From Roseomonas aeriglobus (GTDB taxonomy: Bacteria > Pseudomonadota > Alphaproteobacteria > Sphingomonadales > Sphingomonadaceae), in the NCBI GenBank assembly GCA_016937575.1, contig JAFHKN010000002.1:1984001-2048000 (forward strand): a stretch of DNA of 64,000 nt. Direction: 5' to 3'. Numbering within the stretch: position 1 is the first letter of the stretch; the number at the start of each line of letters is the position of its first letter. The notes under the pieces were generated by a model that made no database searches, was not told the origin of the DNA, and worked only from the letters and a program-made list of their open reading frames with translations. This document shows positions 3,156 to 36,952 of this stretch, piece after piece. Position numbers and translations under genes: made by a program.

Positions 3156-3245
<90 letters not shown>

Positions 3246-28663: not shown

Positions 28664-28834
28664 ATGGTTTCCGCTGCGCACGATACGAATGCCCCTTACG
28701 TCGTGGCTTCGCCGCGCGACGGCGACGGCATCGGCGCAGCCCTGCGGACGGCCTACACCGACCACCGTCTCCCCGACGATATGCTGGCCTTGCTCGGGAA
28801 ACTCAACGGGCGCGCGACCGGAAAACAGCACTGA
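28664..28834 (+). CDS. Short NepR-like anti-sigma factor (second copy in the locus)
   Basis: 56-codon gene that short-ORF cut-offs would miss. Residues 21-48 (DGIGAALRTAYTDH, then LPDDMLALLGKLN) fit the two-helix NepR core, which binds EcfG sigma factors and is titrated by PhyR. Compared with the other NepR copy at 30860, the loop between the helices is four residues shorter. It lies 28 bases from the 3' end of the sigma gene on the opposite strand, so the two converge. ATG at 28664 with GAAGG about 12 bases upstream. No EcfG-type promoter was seen for it. Confidence 0.72.
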   Translation: MVSAAHDTNAPYVVASPRDGDGIGAALRTAYTDHRLPDDMLALLGKLNGRATGKQH

Positions 28835-28862: not shown

Positions 28863-29516
28863 TCAGTTGCGGGTTTCGCGGCTCAGGTCGTCGACCTCGT
28901 CCATGATCGCGTCGAGCGCGCTCTTCTCACCATCGTCGTGCTCTCGACGCGACGGCAGGCGACCTTCGTTCAATATGCCTTCCAGCGCCACGCGCCCACG
29001 CGCGACACGGCTCTTGATCGTGCCCACCGCGACGCCGCAGATATCGGCGGCTTCTTCATATGCGAAGCCACCCGCACCGACGAGGATCAGCGCCTCGCGC
29101 TGCGGCTGTGGCAGATGCAACAGCGCGCGCTGCATGTCGGTCAATTCGACATGGCGGTCCTGACTTGCCGGCGCGGCGAGAAGCCGGTCGGCGACCAGAT
29201 CGTCCCACTCACCCTTGAAGCGCGCGCGACGCATCTGCGACAGATATAGGTTGCGCAGGATGATGAAGGTCCAGGCGCGCATGTTGGTGCCGGCCTGAAA
29301 CCGCTGACGCGCCGCCCAGGCCTTAAGCAGCGTTTCCTGAACAAGGTCGTCGGCCAGGTCGCGGCTTCCCGACAGCGACCGTCCGAACGCGCGAAGGTGC
29401 GGGATGACCAGCGCCAGCTGCGCCTTGAATTCGGGATCGCTGAGCGCGACGTGCGGCACGGGTTCGGCCGCGACGGCCGAGCCGGTCTCTTCGTCGTCAT
29501 GCGCAGTCTGTATCAT
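28863..29516 (-). CDS. ecfG: EcfG-type general stress response sigma factor
   Basis: 217-residue ECF sigma factor. Region 2 spans residues ~30-95 with SRDLADDLVQETLLKAW and the -10-binding WTFIILRNLYLSQMRRARF; region 4 spans ~120-175 with ALILVGAGGFAYEEAADICG and the recognition helix VGTIKSRVARGR. It is followed by an acidic tail. PhyR, two NepR-like genes and EcfG-type promoter sequences (GGAAC-N16-CGTT) within 4 kb identify it as the general stress response sigma factor. It should be held by NepR and released when phosphorylated PhyR binds NepR. Confidence 0.93.
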   Translation of the reverse strand: MIQTAHDDEETGSAVAAEPVPHVALSDPEFKAQLALVIPHLRAFGRSLSGSRDLADDLVQETLLKAWAARQRFQAGTNMRAWTFIILRNLYLSQMRRARFKGEWDDLVADRLLAAPASQDRHVELTDMQRALLHLPQPQREALILVGAGGFAYEEAADICGVAVGTIKSRVARGRVALEGILNEGRLPSRREHDDGEKSALDAIMDEVDDLSRETRN

Positions 29517-29803: not shown

Positions 29804-30607
29804 TCAGGCCGCCGGCACCGTCGCCTCGTCAAAGAACAACGCCTGGCTGATCGCTGCCTTCACCGTCGACCGCTGGAACGGCTTGGTGATGAGGAAGGTC
29901 GGCTCGGGCCGTTCGCCGGTCAGCAGACGCTCGGGGAAGGCGGTGATGAAGATGACCGGCACGTTGAATTCGGCCAGAATGTCCTTCACCGCGTCGATGC
30001 CCGAGCTATCGTCAGCGAGCTGGATGTCGGCGAGCACCAGGCCCGGCCGATCTTCCATCGCCAGCGCCACGGCCTCGTCGCGGGTCACGGCAACGCCGGT
30101 GACTTCATGGCCCTGGTCGCGAACGATCGATTCGATGTCCATCGCGATGATCGGCTCGTCCTCGATGATCAGGACCCGTGCGCGGGTCTGCTTGTCGATT
30201 TCCGACAAGGCGTCGGCGACCAGATCGTCGACTTCTTCCGATGTCGCGTCGATCAGATAGGCAGTATCCTCGGTCGAGAAACCTTCCATCGCGGTCAGGA
30301 GCAGCGCCTGGCGCGATAGCGGCGCGACGCGGGCAAGGCGGCGGCGGGCGATCGCCTCGTGCCCGCTCGACCCGTCATCTTCGGGCAGCGCCCGATTATC
30401 TGCATGGGTCGACGACCAGATCGCCTGGAATGTGCGATACAGGCCGAGGCGCGGATCGACGTCCTTGGGAAATTCTTCCGGGGCCGCGACGATCGCTTCC
30501 AGCGTCGCACGGACATACTGGTCGCCCTCGGACTGGCTGCCGGTCAACGCACGGCCGTAGCGCCGCAGGAAAGGGAGGTGCGGCGAGAGCTGCTGTCCAA
30601 GCGACAT
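29804..30607 (-). CDS. phyR: Response regulator PhyR (sigma-like domain fused to receiver)
   Basis: 267-residue anti-anti-sigma factor of the alphaproteobacterial general stress response. The N-terminal half mimics an ECF sigma factor (LSPHLPFLRRYGRALTGSQ, LSRQALLLTAMEGFSTEDTA) and binds NepR. The C-terminal receiver has acidic pocket EDEPIIAMD, the phosphorylated Asp in VLADIQLADDSSG, and the FAT GUY-type PVIFITAFPE and TKPF. Phosphorylation exposes the sigma-like domain. ATG at 30607 (MSLGQQLSPH) gives the normal PhyR length; an upstream in-frame start adds nine unconserved residues. Divergent from the nepR-phyP pair. Confidence 0.95.
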   Translation of the reverse strand: MSLGQQLSPHLPFLRRYGRALTGSQSEGDQYVRATLEAIVAAPEEFPKDVDPRLGLYRTFQAIWSSTHADNRALPEDDGSSGHEAIARRRLARVAPLSRQALLLTAMEGFSTEDTAYLIDATSEEVDDLVADALSEIDKQTRARVLIIEDEPIIAMDIESIVRDQGHEVTGVAVTRDEAVALAMEDRPGLVLADIQLADDSSGIDAVKDILAEFNVPVIFITAFPERLLTGERPEPTFLITKPFQRSTVKAAISQALFFDEATVPAA

Positions 30608-30716
30608 GTTCGATCGAAACTCCTTATTGGGCACCCTAAGGTGTGGCGGCGCCCGGTCCTTTGCAATCGTTCAGAAAGCCGCTCGTCGGCCCCCTCCCCG
30701 ATATTTTGCACGGTCT

Positions 30717-30741
30717 GGAACAAACGAGGCGGTCTTTGGTT
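30717..30741 (+). promoter_or_regulatory. EcfG-type promoter upstream of nepR-phyP
   Basis: GGAAC at 30717-30721, 17 bases, then GTT at 30739-30741 (GGAAC-N16-GGTT, one mismatch to the GGAAC-N16/17-CGTT consensus of EcfG promoters). It lies 118 bases before the nepR start, inside the 252-bp divergent gap to phyR, and would give autoregulation of the anti-sigma factor. Confidence 0.6.
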
Positions 30742-30859: not shown

Positions 30860-31021
30860 GTGGTTTCCAAGACGGACGACGAGAAGACGCCCGGACGTAA
30901 GGGCGGCAAAGCTGGTGGGCAGGAGCGAGACGTCGGAGAGGCGTTGCGCGCGGTCTATCATGATGCCGCATCCGAAACCGTGCCCGACGAGATGCTGGAA
31001 CTCCTGAAGAAGCTGGGATAG
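30860..31021 (+). CDS. nepR: Anti-sigma factor NepR
   Basis: 53-codon gene. After a basic, disordered N-terminus (SKTDDEKTPGRKGGKAGG) comes the NepR core DVGEALRAVYHDAASE followed by TVPDEMLELLKKLG: two amphipathic helices joined by a short loop. NepR sequesters EcfG until PhyR-P binds it. The GTG at 30860 is chosen because GGGGGA lies just upstream; in-frame starts further up would add unconserved residues. It is preceded by an EcfG-type promoter and followed after 10 bases by the histidine-kinase-like gene. Confidence 0.85.
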   Translation: MVSKTDDEKTPGRKGGKAGGQERDVGEALRAVYHDAASETVPDEMLELLKKLG

Positions 31022-31031
31022 TCCGTCGCAG

Positions 31032-32618
31032 ATGACGGACGCTTCGCACGAGCAGCCGGCCCCGGTCCTGACCGGCGTGCCGGCCGGCCGGTTTGCCCGG
31101 TTGCCGACCGGCGCCAAACTTTTCCTGATCCTTAGCGTAGCGCTGTTGCCGTTTGCGCTTATCATCACTTTCGCCGCCTACCAGACGACCCGCGTATCCG
31201 ACAGCGAGAACCGCGCGCGGTTGCGCGTCGCCGCGACAGAAGGCGCACGCACGCTGACGATCGAACTGGTCGGCGACATGACGGCGCTGCGTTCCGCTCT
31301 CGATACGATCGAGCGCGATCCTGAGGACGCGCTCAGCTGCGCGCGAGTCAGCGGTGTCTTCGCGCCCGATCTCGGCGCCGGCGGCAGCTTCGGCATTCAT
31401 GACGCCGCCGGGCGGCTGCGTTGCGGCCGCGACATTCCGCAGGCCGAAGGCGCCACCGGCACGACGGTGGCGACCACCATCATGCCCGATCGCGGGCTGA
31501 CGATGACGATTCGCGGCTCAAATGGCCTCGCGCGCGCCACTGCCTTCTTTCCTACCGCCTTTCTGAGCAGCGTCAGTCGACCGAGCGGTTTCGTTCCCGA
31601 ATATGGCTCTGAACTGCACGACGATGACTCGACGCTGCAATTGCGGCGTCTCGATGGACCGCTGCTTGCGCGCCGCGACACGCTGACGGTCCCGGTCGGC
31701 CTGTCCGACCTCGAATTCGTCATGACGATGGCCAGCACGCCGATCACCTCGCCGGTTCTGATCGCGATGCTGCTGCCGCTGCTGATGTGGGCGGTCGCCG
31801 CGAGCGTCGGCTGGTTCGTCGTCGATCGCATGCTGATCCGTCCGCTGCGTCGGCTGCGCACCAGCGTCGTGCAATATCGGCCCGGCAATTCGTTCGACGT
31901 CATGTCGATCGGGGCCGTGCCCGCGCACGAAATCCGGGAGCTAGACCAGGCCTTCCTCGGTCTCGGCCGCACGGTCCAGGCCCACGAAAGCGACCTTGCT
32001 GAAGGTCTCGTCCGCCAGACCCGACTGACCCGAGAGGTCCATCACCGCGTCAAAAACAACCTGCAAGTCATTGCAAGCCTTATCAACTTTCACGCCCGCG
32101 GATCGGCGTCGAAGGAGGCGAGTGCGGCCTATGCCTCGATCCAACGGCGCGTCGATGCGCTGGCGGTCGTCCATCGTCATCATTTCGCGGAAATGGAGAT
32201 CAACCGCGGCCTCGGGCTACGCTCGGTGCTCGGCGAGCTGTCCGCGAACCTGCGCGCGACGGCGCCGGAGGGTGGCGGACGGCTGTCGCTGGTCCTGGAC
32301 ATCGACCCCTTCTATGTCAGCCAGGACACAGCGGTAGCGGTCGCGTTTCTGACGACCGAACTGGTCGAACTGGCGATGACAATCGCGCCCGCCTCGCAGG
32401 TTCGCATCTCGCTGAAGCCCGAACCGGGGTCCGAGGACCGCGCCATCTTGAGGATCAATTCGCCCGCCCTCGTCGAAGGCGACACGCTGCGCGACCTGCT
32501 CGCCACGCGCTATGGCCGCGTGATCGAAGGCCTGTCACGCCAGCTGCGGACAAAGCTGCATCACGATCCGCTGGTCGGCGCGTTCGAAGTCGTGATCACC
32601 GTCGTGGGTCGCGATTGA
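31032..32618 (+). CDS. phyP: HisKA_2-type membrane histidine-kinase-like protein, PhyP-like, with degenerate ATPase domain
   Basis: 528 residues. TM1 (~28-50), a periplasmic domain (~51-240), TM2 (~243-265), a HAMP-like stretch, then a HisKA_2 box EVHHRVKNNLQVIASL with His337/His338. The following domain does not show a normal HATPase: where the N box ELxxNA should be it reads TELVELAMTIAP, and no DxGxG or GLGL glycine box is found (LRINSPALVEG and RYGRVIEG instead). In Sphingomonas sp. Fr1 the locus-encoded PhyP is a negative regulator and likely phosphatase of PhyR, which fits loss of ATP binding. Cotranscribed with nepR. Confidence 0.75.
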   Translation: MTDASHEQPAPVLTGVPAGRFARLPTGAKLFLILSVALLPFALIITFAAYQTTRVSDSENRARLRVAATEGARTLTIELVGDMTALRSALDTIERDPEDALSCARVSGVFAPDLGAGGSFGIHDAAGRLRCGRDIPQAEGATGTTVATTIMPDRGLTMTIRGSNGLARATAFFPTAFLSSVSRPSGFVPEYGSELHDDDSTLQLRRLDGPLLARRDTLTVPVGLSDLEFVMTMASTPITSPVLIAMLLPLLMWAVAASVGWFVVDRMLIRPLRRLRTSVVQYRPGNSFDVMSIGAVPAHEIRELDQAFLGLGRTVQAHESDLAEGLVRQTRLTREVHHRVKNNLQVIASLINFHARGSASKEASAAYASIQRRVDALAVVHRHHFAEMEINRGLGLRSVLGELSANLRATAPEGGGRLSLVLDIDPFYVSQDTAVAVAFLTTELVELAMTIAPASQVRISLKPEPGSEDRAILRINSPALVEGDTLRDLLATRYGRVIEGLSRQLRTKLHHDPLVGAFEVVITVVGRD

Positions 32619-32655
32619 TCCGATTCATTTTTTTTGACGTTTTTGACTCTCCGCT

Positions 32656-32680
32656 GGAACCCTGAAGCCAAAGGGCCGTT
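32656..32680 (+). promoter_or_regulatory. EcfG-type promoter (consensus) in the phyP-entericidin gap
   Basis: GGAAC at 32656-32660, 16 bases, CGTT at 32677-32680: an exact match to the EcfG consensus. It starts 37 bases after the phyP stop. Directly downstream are two C-rich-loop hairpins (candidate small RNA) and, 215 bases on, the entericidin-like gene. Confidence 0.68.
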
Positions 32681-32686
32681 CTGCTC

Positions 32687-32792
32687 CACGGATAGTGACC
32701 TTTTGCCCCCCCGCTCTCGCTATCCAAGACATAGGCCCGGAAGCGTCCACCCCTCCCCCCCCCCGGTGACGCTTCCGGGCCTAAATTCTTTT
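32687..32792 (+). ncRNA. Candidate EcfG-dependent small RNA with two C-rich hairpin loops
   Basis: About 105 nt from the expected start of the EcfG promoter to a T-rich end. Hairpin 1 (32690-32725): GGATAG with CTATCC around a 24-nt loop containing seven consecutive Cs. Hairpin 2 (32733-32782): a perfect 15-bp stem, AGGCCCGGAAGCGTC with GACGCTTCCGGGCCT, around a 20-nt loop holding CCCC-T-CCCCCCCCCC, followed by AAATTCTTTT. C-rich loops of this kind pair with G-rich Shine-Dalgarno regions; Caulobacter GsrN, a stress-sigma-dependent sRNA, works through such a loop. Start and end are inferred. It could instead be a leader or terminator structure. Confidence 0.5.
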
Positions 32793-32894
32793 CGGGGCTC
32801 TCGACATCGCCGACCCCCTGCCCGCCGCGACGGCGGAACGATCGCCGATGTCGATCATTGAGCCAGCGCAACCAATCTTCGGGAGTTATCGTCC

Positions 32895-33029
32895 ATGCGT
32901 AAGATCCTGACCGCGCTGACCCTTGTCGGCGCCCTGGCGGTGAGCGCCTGCAATACCGTCGAGGGCGTCGGCCGCGACGTGGCATCGGCGGGCAACACCG
33001 TTGCGAAGACCGCCGACAAGTCGAAGTAA
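32895..33029 (+). CDS. Entericidin-like small lipoprotein
   Basis: 44 residues, below the usual ORF length limit. The lipoprotein signal MRKILTALTLVGALAVSAC has a lipobox with the acylated Cys19, and the mature part NTVEGVGRDVASAGNTVAKT matches entericidin A/B-type peptides. In E. coli EcnB is a stress-induced membrane-active lipoprotein. ATG at 32895; upstream CGGGAG lies about 14 bases away. The leader contains an inverted repeat (32801-32809 with 32846-32854) and a CCGCCG-CGA-CGGCGG hairpin. EcfG control is plausible from location. Confidence 0.82.
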   Translation: MRKILTALTLVGALAVSACNTVEGVGRDVASAGNTVAKTADKSK

Positions 33030-33053
33030 TCTCCGGCCCGACCGGCATGACAG

Positions 33054-33094
33054 AAGGGCCGCGATCCACCCCGGATCGCGGCCCTTTCGTTTTG
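33054..33094. terminator. Bidirectional terminator between entericidin-like gene and tatC
   Basis: Perfect 14-bp stem AAGGGCCGCGATCC (33054-33067) with GGATCGCGGCCCTT (33073-33086), loop ACCCC, followed on the plus strand by TTCGTTTT. It separates the convergent entericidin-like and tat transcripts; on the minus strand the A/T-rich tail is shorter. Confidence 0.85.
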
Positions 33095-33112
33095 GCAGTG
33101 CGGTAGATCAGG

Positions 33113-33874
33113 TCAGGCGTCGCTGTCCGCTGTGACCTTGGCTCGCTTGCGCTCGGTGAACCAGATACCGATCAGCGCAAGTTCGTAGAGTAGCACCAGC
33201 GGCACCGCCAGCATCAGCTGCGACCCAACGTCCGGCGGCGTCAACACGGCGGCGATGCCGAATGCCCCGACAATGGCGTACCGGCGGGCACCGACCAGTT
33301 GCTTCCGGGTGACGATGCCGGCACGCTCCAGCAGCATCAGCAGAATCGGCAGCAGAAAGGAAATGCCGAACGCGAACAGGAACTGCATCACGAACGACAG
33401 GTACGGCCCCACAGTCGGAATCGCTTCCTGCTGCACGCCGCCCAGGTCACCCTGGTAACTCAGCAGGAAATGCACCGCGATCGGGATCGCCATGTAATAA
33501 GCGAGCGCCGCCCCCATGGTGAACAGCACCGGTGTGGCGAGCAGGAAGGGCAGCAGCGCCTTCTTCTCGTTGCGGTAGAGCCCCGGCGCGACGAACTGCC
33601 ACAGCTGCATCGCGATGACCGGGAAAGCCAGCATCATCGCCGCAAAGAACGCGACTTTGATTTGGACGAAGAACGCCTCGAACAGCTGCGTGAAGAAGAT
33701 CTTGTTCTGCCCGGCCTCGACCAGCGGGTGGACCAGAAACGAGAAGATCGGCCGCGCAAAGTAGAAACAGACGGCAAAGCCCAGAACGATCGCGAGGACG
33801 CAATACAGCAAGCGCCGGCGCAACTCGATCAGGTGGTCGAGCAGCGGGGCCTGGGTATCGTCGATGTCTCTCAT
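33113..33874 (-). CDS. tatC: Twin-arginine translocase subunit TatC
   Basis: 253-residue six-helix membrane protein that recognises twin-arginine signal peptides and nucleates the Tat pore. Family motifs: [16 protein letters not shown] at the start, [46 protein letters not shown] (read as two segments) and [21 protein letters not shown] at 33874 overlaps the tatB stop (ATGA). Last gene of a long minus-strand operon argS to tatC. Confidence 0.96.
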
Positions 33875-35947: not shown

Positions 35948-36952
35948 TCAGGCAAGCGCCAGGAACGAGTCCCGCCGTGCGATCGCCTCGGCAAAGTCGA
36001 CGCCCCCGGGCGCCGCGACACTCGCCATCGCGCGGTCGAGGCGCGCACGCGCCGCATCCGAAATTTCGTCGACCCGCCCGGCGATCTCGACCATCTCGTC
36101 CATCCGCGCCCAGCAGTCGAGCACCACGTCGCACCCCGCCGCCAACGCTGCCGCCGCCTTCTCGCCCGGCGTGCCCGACAAGGCCTTCATATCGATATCG
36201 TCGGTCATCAGCAGACCGTCGAAGCCGATCCGGCTGCGGATGACGTCGGCGATGACCGTCGGCGACAGCGTCGCCGGATGCTCGGCGTCCCAAGCCTTGA
36301 ATACGACGTGGCAGGTCATGCCCATCGGGGCGTGAGCGAGCGTGCGGAACGGCCGGATGTCTTCCTCCAGTTCGGCGTCCGACGCGTCGACCACGGGAAG
36401 TTCGTAATGGCTGTCGACGCCGGCGCGACCGTGGCCCGGCATATGTTTGATGACGCCCACCACGCCCGCCTTTGCCAGCCCGTCGAGCATCGCCCGACCG
36501 AGCGCGGCGACCTGCATTGCGTCGCCACCATAGGCGCGGTCGGCGATGGCACCGACGGTGTCGGGAAATCGCCGGTCGAGCATGGGCGCGCAATCGACGG
36601 TGATTCCGACCTCCGCCAGCATTGCGCCCAGCGCCTCTCCGTTCGCGCATGCAGCGGCGATGGCCGAGGCGGGTGCGGTGTCGTACAGCGCGTCGAACGC
36701 CGGGCCGGCGGGAAAAGCGGGCCATTCAGGCGGCTTCATCCGCGCGACGCGGCCGCCCTCCTGATCGATCAGGATCGGCAGGCGGTCGTTGCCGGAAAGC
36801 TCCCGCAATTCTGCCGTCAACGCAGAGAGTTGCGCCCGGTCCTGAACATTGCGTCCGAACAGGATGTAGCCGACCGGATCGGCCTCGCGAAAGAAGGCGC
36901 GTTCGTCGGCGGTAAGCGTCAGGCCCGACAGGCCGTAGATGACTGGCTTCAT
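35948..36952 (-). CDS. nagZ: Beta-N-acetylhexosaminidase NagZ (GH3)
   Basis: 334-residue cytosolic glycosidase of peptidoglycan recycling, releasing GlcNAc from GlcNAc-anhydroMur-peptides. GH3 motifs: GYILFGRNVQDRAQL, PILIDQEGGRVARM, the general-acid loop KHMPGHGRAGVDSHYELP, and the nucleophile Asp in FDGLLMTDDIDM. ATG at 36952 (MKPVIYGLSG) chosen over an upstream extension that would run through repeat family A. Placed in the argS-SPOR-nagZ-scpAB order conserved in alphaproteobacteria. Confidence 0.94.
   Translation of the reverse strand: MKPVIYGLSGLTLTADERAFFREADPVGYILFGRNVQDRAQLSALTAELRELSGNDRLPILIDQEGGRVARMKPPEWPAFPAGPAFDALYDTAPASAIAAACANGEALGAMLAEVGITVDCAPMLDRRFPDTVGAIADRAYGGDAMQVAALGRAMLDGLAKAGVVGVIKHMPGHGRAGVDSHYELPVVDASDAELEEDIRPFRTLAHAPMGMTCHVVFKAWDAEHPATLSPTVIADVIRSRIGFDGLLMTDDIDMKALSGTPGEKAAAALAAGCDVVLDCWARMDEMVEIAGRVDEISDAARARLDRAMASVAAPGGVDFAEAIARRDSFLALA

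Follow-up and report, generated by a model that had tools for sequence, protein, structure and literature searches.

A conserved, predicted RNA gene with two C-rich hairpin loops behind an EcfG-type promoter in the general stress locus of Sphingomonadaceae

In the genome of Roseomonas aeriglobus, a stretch of the general stress locus lies between a histidine kinase gene and a small lipoprotein gene, which raises the question what this stretch encodes. In the window (the whole stretch of DNA that was analysed, 64,000 nt long), the locus consists of ecfG, phyR, nepR, a HisKA_2/HWE kinase gene, the stretch in question, an entericidin gene and tatC (Table 1). A preliminary description had proposed a GsrN-like small RNA driven by the general stress sigma factor EcfG at this position.

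The gene order in the window is that of S. melonis Fr1, where phyT, nepR, phyR and ecfG are numbered #1443, #1444, #1445 and #1447 and #1442 is listed as a 'predicted small secreted protein' (PMC6599016). Based on this synteny, the kinase upstream of the putative RNA is called PhyT-like here (formerly PhyP); its best model in NCBIfam was PhyK, with 102.7 bits at a cut-off of 750. An ORF of 56 amino acids (28664-28834, plus strand) adjoins ecfG. By eye its C-terminal part resembles NepR, and it is placed like nepR2 (#1448) of S. melonis Fr1; searches of Pfam and NCBIfam gave no match for it.

Table 1. Features of the general stress locus, in positions of the window
Feature	Position	Strand	Basis or remark
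ecfG-type ECF sigma factor gene	28863-29516	-	Pfam Sigma70_r2 and r4_2; EcfG identity from locus context
phyR	29804-30634	-	NCBIfam PhyR family, 375 bits, cut-off 240
EcfG-type box of nepR	30717-30741		
nepR (anti-sigma factor)	30863-31021	+	Pfam NepR
PhyT-like HisKA_2/HWE histidine kinase gene	31032-32618	+	Upstream of the sRNA; Pfam HisKA_2, HWE_HK
EcfG-type promoter of the sRNA	32656-32680	+	-35 GGAAC 32656-32660, 16-nt spacer, -10 CGTT 32677-32680
Predicted sRNA, about 107 nt	32687-32793	+	5' end inferred from promoter, 3' end from hairpin 2 and T-rich tail
Hairpin 1	32690-32725	+	9 bp with one G-U, 32690-32698 / 32717-32725; loop 32699-32716, C7 at 32706-32712
Hairpin 2	32732-32783	+	Perfect 16-bp stem, 32732-32747 / 32768-32783; loop 32748-32767, C10 at 32755-32764; candidate terminator stem
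T-rich tail AATTCTTTTC	32784-32793	+	After hairpin 2
EcfG-type box GGAAC-N16-CATT	32835-32859	+	Before the entericidin gene; -10 CATT rather than CGTT
Entericidin-family small lipoprotein gene	32895-33029	+	Downstream of the sRNA; Pfam Entericidin 23.7 bits, cut-off 23.3
tatC	33113-33874	-	Named from reading of the translation

Promoter, structure and covariation

The exact GGAAC-N16-CGTT promoter of the preliminary description was found at the beginning of the stretch, followed by the two hairpins for which loops with 7 and at least 10 consecutive Cs had been described. The second stem had been given as a perfect 15-bp stem with a T-rich end; it is indeed perfect and followed by a T-rich end, but comprises 16 bp. 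The 137-nt stretch folds at -57 kcal/mol compared to -35.4 ± 3.7 for shuffled sequences (z -5.8, 0 of 200 as good), and the predicted 107-nt transcript folds at -50.1 compared to -23.2 ± 2.7 (z -10.1). The T-tract after hairpin 2 is weak, and a terminator scan, which considers loops of 3-8 nt, made no call at this hairpin with its 20-nt loop. On the plus strand of the window the pattern GGAAC-N15-18-NGTT occurs four times and on the minus strand never; further matches lie at 36346 (+) and 51191 (+).

When 28 same-genus loci were aligned (own included; 30 were fetched, and the two missed by the script pattern also carry the element and the promoter), the mean pairwise identity was 32% upstream, 100% in the -35 box, 34% in the spacer, 94% in the -10 box, 48% in the discriminator, 86.5% in the RNA and 34% downstream. 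Since only the two boxes and the RNA are conserved, with flanks and spacer at 32-34%, a transcription unit of about 107 nt is outlined.

Selection acts on the structure of the RNA. Of the cells in the 29-sequence genus alignment, 98.8% are paired (100% in helix 1), and two-sided changes occur in 9 of 24 pairs. These amount to 31 cells compared to 6.5 ± 2.1 after shuffling (0 of 500 shuffles reached 31), and the signal was lost when the pairing partners were slid. Across the family (61 sequences), two-sided changes were observed in all 24 pairs, 9 in helix 1 and 15 in helix 2 (the model holds 15 pairs for helix 2), amounting to 203 cells compared to 46.2 ± 5.2; this alignment had been fitted to the covariance model and is biased in its favour. 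For 19 members, hand-picked for diversity, a free MAFFT/RNAalifold analysis also yielded both helices, 16 of 21 pairs showing two-sided changes. Lack of hairpin conservation in related species had been named beforehand as a refuting finding; the hairpins are in fact kept, with compensatory changes, in both genus and family. C-runs are present in all 61 members, with 6-10 Cs in loop 1, 5-13 in loop 2 and at most 3 in the linker.

It had also been stated that no gene fits this stretch, and we agree that it is unlikely to be coding. The three reading frames of the core hold a stop in 25, 15 and 16 of 29 relatives, respectively, and an ORF of at least 15 amino acids starting with ATG, GTG or TTG is present in 15 of 29. 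By itself this test does not settle the matter; the length of the C-runs also differs among relatives and shifts the reading frame. Overall, a coding reading is disfavoured.

Distribution and genomic neighbourhood

The predicted RNA gene is conserved across much of the Sphingomonadaceae. BLASTN detected the element in 36 of 37 genomes of the same genus, own included, and in none of 24 genomes from other families of the order; the one genome of the genus that gave no match is an 84% complete draft in about 610 contigs. A covariance search over the family, as had been suggested, was run with a model called R1. It gave matches at E <= 0.001 in 69 of 199 family genomes (39 of 96 genera); 64 genomes in 35 genera (genera counted from rows) score at least 44 bits. 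In the order and class samples matches were found in 76 of 296 and 3 of 385 genomes, respectively. The number of candidates scored per genome was limited to 19 in the family, 12 in the order and 9 in the class search, so absences should be read with caution. One genome (G102) found in the family search, for example, was missed in the order search. The sole match outside the family in the order sample (G038, 29 bits) and one in the class sample (G605, 27 bits; the other two matches are from the genus of the window) are terminator-like hairpins lacking a promoter and were rejected as members.

The covariance models exclude the promoter, which makes it an independent check on the hits. Among 66 strong hits, 65 are directly preceded by the pattern GGAAC-N15-18-NGTT, which in most cases ends 3 nt ahead of the model start; none of 11 weak hits is preceded by it. 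These 66 hits represent 63 of the 64 family genomes and three from the order search, one hit cut at a contig end being left out. A pattern scan of named genomes yielded at least 120 loci, one too near a contig end and 119 evaluable; the promoter pattern is present in 117 of these (104 with CGTT), and the other two carry GGAAC-N16-CATT. The density of the pattern in the named loci is about 0.16 per kb, true sites counted in. Among the matches listed (80 titles), Sphingomonas prevails, together with Stakelama, Sphingomicrobium, Sphingorhabdus, Hephaestia and Sphingosinicella.

A laxer search with model R2 (E <= 0.01) was run on 34 genomes for which there had been no convincing match and yielded 12 matches, spread over 10 genomes. 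An EcfG-type promoter is present upstream of five and absent from seven. Four of the five promoters end 2-3 nt ahead of where the model begins, the fifth 12 nt ahead; the five elements behind them differ widely in their stems and have kept C-runs in both loops. The C-runs persist where the stems change.

The search for another copy in the own genome found none that was accepted, the next matches being the antisense strand of the element itself (25.8 bits) and a hairpin lacking an EcfG-type promoter (L255, 20.8 bits), followed by two of 14.7 and 14.6 bits. The promoter strings of S. melonis Fr1 had no match among the fetched loci, so that the RNA of this strain was not seen.

The neighbourhood is conserved as well. 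By tblastn, a relative of the kinase lies upstream of the RNA in all 29 genus loci, own included, with 50-62% protein identity to the copy in the window in the other loci. TatC was detected nearby in 27 of 29 genus loci and 57 of 66 family loci, and at least one of kinase, phyR, entericidin and tatC in 65 of 66 family loci. The promoter motif, covariation, conservation and genome position, which like the structure were shown by computation, support the earlier proposal of an EcfG-driven small RNA embedded in the stress locus. Judging from the promoter motif, the RNA gene is probably switched on by the stress sigma factor.

Hairpins with C-rich loops were also observed elsewhere. Five weak matches in the family (L243, L244, L246, L249 and L473) are terminator-like hairpins with a C-rich loop (runs such as CCCCTCCCCC), and the genes before them have a common C-terminus; the one tested, in L244, encodes an AhpC/TSA peroxiredoxin (Pfam). 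As these ahpC-type hairpins have no EcfG-type promoter, C-rich loops are not unique to the RNA described here, and the hairpins may constitute another source of C-rich hairpins, located in 3'-UTRs and linked to oxidative stress. Among terminator-like hairpins in the window and 60 fetched loci, 19 of 45 carry a C-run of at least 5, a weak control because the loci were fetched for this RNA. By eye these 19 are mostly this RNA, two lie after ahpC-like genes and one is without assignment.

Possible function and alternative explanations

We consider it likely that the stretch is the gene for a non-coding, EcfG-dependent small RNA of about 107 nt that pairs through its C-rich loops with G-rich mRNA sites. 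EcfG-RNA polymerase would transcribe it within the general stress locus, starting at a promoter of its own; transcription would end at hairpin 2, and the RNA would build up under stress. The two C-rich loops would be its working parts: one or both may pair with mRNAs where these are rich in G, be it in the leader or at the ribosome-binding site, and this pairing would alter translation or stability of the mRNAs, with both the direction of regulation and the targets presumptive. We infer the pairing from the C-runs that outlast the stems and from the reported role of such loops in pairing or regulation in GsrN and PmaR (PMC5869019, PMC6234868). EcfG would in this way gain a post-transcriptional arm, as SigT has via GsrN in Caulobacter.

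Target prediction at G-rich sites, which had been suggested as a check, was performed and returned no conserved target. For katG, 22 genus loci could be evaluated, with the start taken as the in-frame ATG or GTG lying farthest upstream, a choice that may be wrong in some loci. A GGGGG run occurs in the 160 nt before this start in 2 of them; the own genome has none there. Lacking a conserved G-run in its leaders, katG is unsupported as a conserved target, though a weaker pairing with the leader may still occur. In the own genome CGGGGGG-N2-14-ATG has 100 matches compared to 32 for the reversed pattern, and GGGGAGGGG-N2-12-ATG has 30 compared to 4, an excess that ribosome-binding sites alone may explain. 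From 75 candidate starts in the own genome (70 of the 75 listed), two with a GAGCGGGGGG match to loop 1 were followed, one TonB-receptor-like (L325) and one thiolase-like (L405), both named by eye. The L325 site was absent from the 17 orthologue starts listed (three more gave no start) and the L405 site from six same-genus relatives, which leaves both unsupported as conserved targets.

That no conserved mRNA target was found, for katG or for these two genes, would also suit an RNA that is real and EcfG-dependent but whose C-rich loops capture a protein or else act as a decoy or sponge by titrating a G-rich RNA, for instance another small RNA. Two similar C-rich loops on variable stems would fit such a role, and a sponge RNA, CrfA, has been described in Caulobacter (PMC12559287). 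On the other hand, the C-rich loops of GsrN and PmaR are reported to pair with mRNA (PMC5869019, PMC6234868), and no G-rich small RNA partner is known here, though none was sought; we regard this explanation as unlikely. The stretch could also be mainly the 5' leader of the entericidin gene, with a start at 32687, read-through, and hairpins acting in cis as attenuator or stabiliser. The RNA and the entericidin gene are on the same strand, the T-tract is weak, and an entericidin gene was detected near the RNA in most loci (27 of 29 in the genus, 53 of 66 in the family). However, the RNA is kept in the remaining 13 of 66 loci (by tblastn, so some entericidin genes were possibly missed), and identity falls to 34% directly after it. 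Moreover, the entericidin gene has its own GGAAC-N16-CATT box, and 44 of 66 family loci have a box GGAAC-N15-18-N[AG]TT in the 420 nt that follow the RNA.

In S. melonis Fr1, #1442, which we infer to be the entericidin gene, is listed as EcfG-regulated with a log2 ratio of -4.7 and the box GGAACGAATGGCCCGACCGATCATT (PMC6599016). Together with the own box of the entericidin gene, this suggests that RNA and entericidin are two neighbouring EcfG-type units. A primary transcript continuing into entericidin, which had been named as a finding against a separate small RNA, is made less likely by the second box, and a leader function appears highly unlikely to us. It is hardly credible that the stretch is only the terminator region of phyT, with hairpin 1 and the promoter match being incidental. 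Hairpin 2 does resemble a terminator and shares its strand with phyT, which lies upstream of it, but this reading would leave the conserved GGAAC and GTT boxes at fixed spacing, the covarying hairpin 1 and the C-runs in both loops unexplained; the scan also places another candidate directly at the end of phyT (32605-32622), though 0.6 would be expected by chance.

The stress response of Sphingomonadaceae has been studied so far at the protein and mRNA level (S. melonis Fr1, Sphingopyxis granuli). A term search of the main texts of the transcriptome papers on these two organisms found no stress-response small RNA named, and the terms sRNA, ncRNA, non-coding and small RNA are absent from the main text of the S. 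melonis Fr1 paper (PMC6599016). No description of this RNA was found in the parts covered of the literature on the general stress response and small RNAs of Sphingomonas and Alphaproteobacteria (including PMC5869019, PMC6599016, PMC7083833, PMC12559287 and PMC6234868), in which subscription journals are mostly not represented. The stress response may have an RNA arm that has been overlooked, given a predicted gene that is unannotated, conserved and probably under the control of the stress sigma factor. Such an arm in the locus could explain effects of EcfG on genes that have no EcfG site, and public RNA-seq data of S. melonis Fr1 wild type and its delta-ecfG, delta-phyR and delta-sdrG strains (PRJEB30300, PMC6599016) are relevant to it.

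Comparison with known RNAs

At the gathering threshold, Rfam 15 placed no family over the stretch, and its sole match in the window was a tRNA at 3156-3242; a permissive search of 32500-33100 gave five sub-threshold matches. CcsR1 (RF02791, conserved CCUCCUCCC motif stress-induced RNA) is likewise a stress-induced RNA named for a C/U-rich motif. Membership in this family was ruled out, as the score was 13.5 bits compared to a gathering score of 65.3 and covered hairpin 2 only.

GsrN of Caulobacter crescentus (ccna_R0081) is described as pairing through a C-rich loop with G-rich mRNA, including the katG leader, and as being cleaved to a stable 5' isoform of 51-54 nt (PMC5869019). According to the same source, its homologues typically lie near ecfG-nepR-phyR, which is not the case in C. 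crescentus itself. Like GsrN, the RNA described here has a GGAAC/CGTT-type promoter, at motif level, and a predicted length of about 100 nt with an exposed C-rich 5' loop, C7 in loop 1. At its 3' end, where GsrN has an intrinsic terminator hairpin, it has a strong covarying hairpin that was not called as a terminator, and its gene lies beside ecfG, nepR and phyR. In contrast to GsrN, for which only a C-rich 5' loop is described (PMC5869019), both loops are C-rich, and the pairing site in katG was not found. The earlier designation 'GsrN-like' thus holds as an analogy drawn from descriptions of GsrN in promoter, size, 5' loop, 3' hairpin and position, and fails for the katG G-run. Homology is unproven, and in the order and class samples the model finds nothing convincing outside the Sphingomonadaceae.

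The RNA also resembles the GsrN-like RNAs predicted in Rhizobiaceae, as far as their description goes, which are intergenic, near stress genes, and have a near-consensus EcfG site and a C-rich 5' loop (PMC5869019). As far as that source goes, Sphingomonas is unmentioned, and no apparent gsrN-like gene is reported for Erythrobacter litoralis. PmaR of Agrobacterium tumefaciens, again by its description, is a small RNA in which a long stem carries an accessible, partly C-rich loop, and this loop mediates target regulation, mostly positive; it differs in being one spoon-like hairpin, and no mention of EcfG or a stress locus was seen in the parts covered of its description (PMC6234868). A conserved RNA arm would bear on the question whether small RNAs with C-rich loops are a general part of the alphaproteobacterial stress response. 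As a tentative idea, which we hold to be rather doubtful, the two-headed C-rich RNA might be a general post-transcriptional output of EcfG in Sphingomonadaceae, with anti-Shine-Dalgarno-like, interchangeable loops. GsrN, the rhizobial RNAs and this RNA might then represent one ancient RNA of the alphaproteobacterial stress response, which has stayed next to the stress genes although its sequence has changed beyond recognition.
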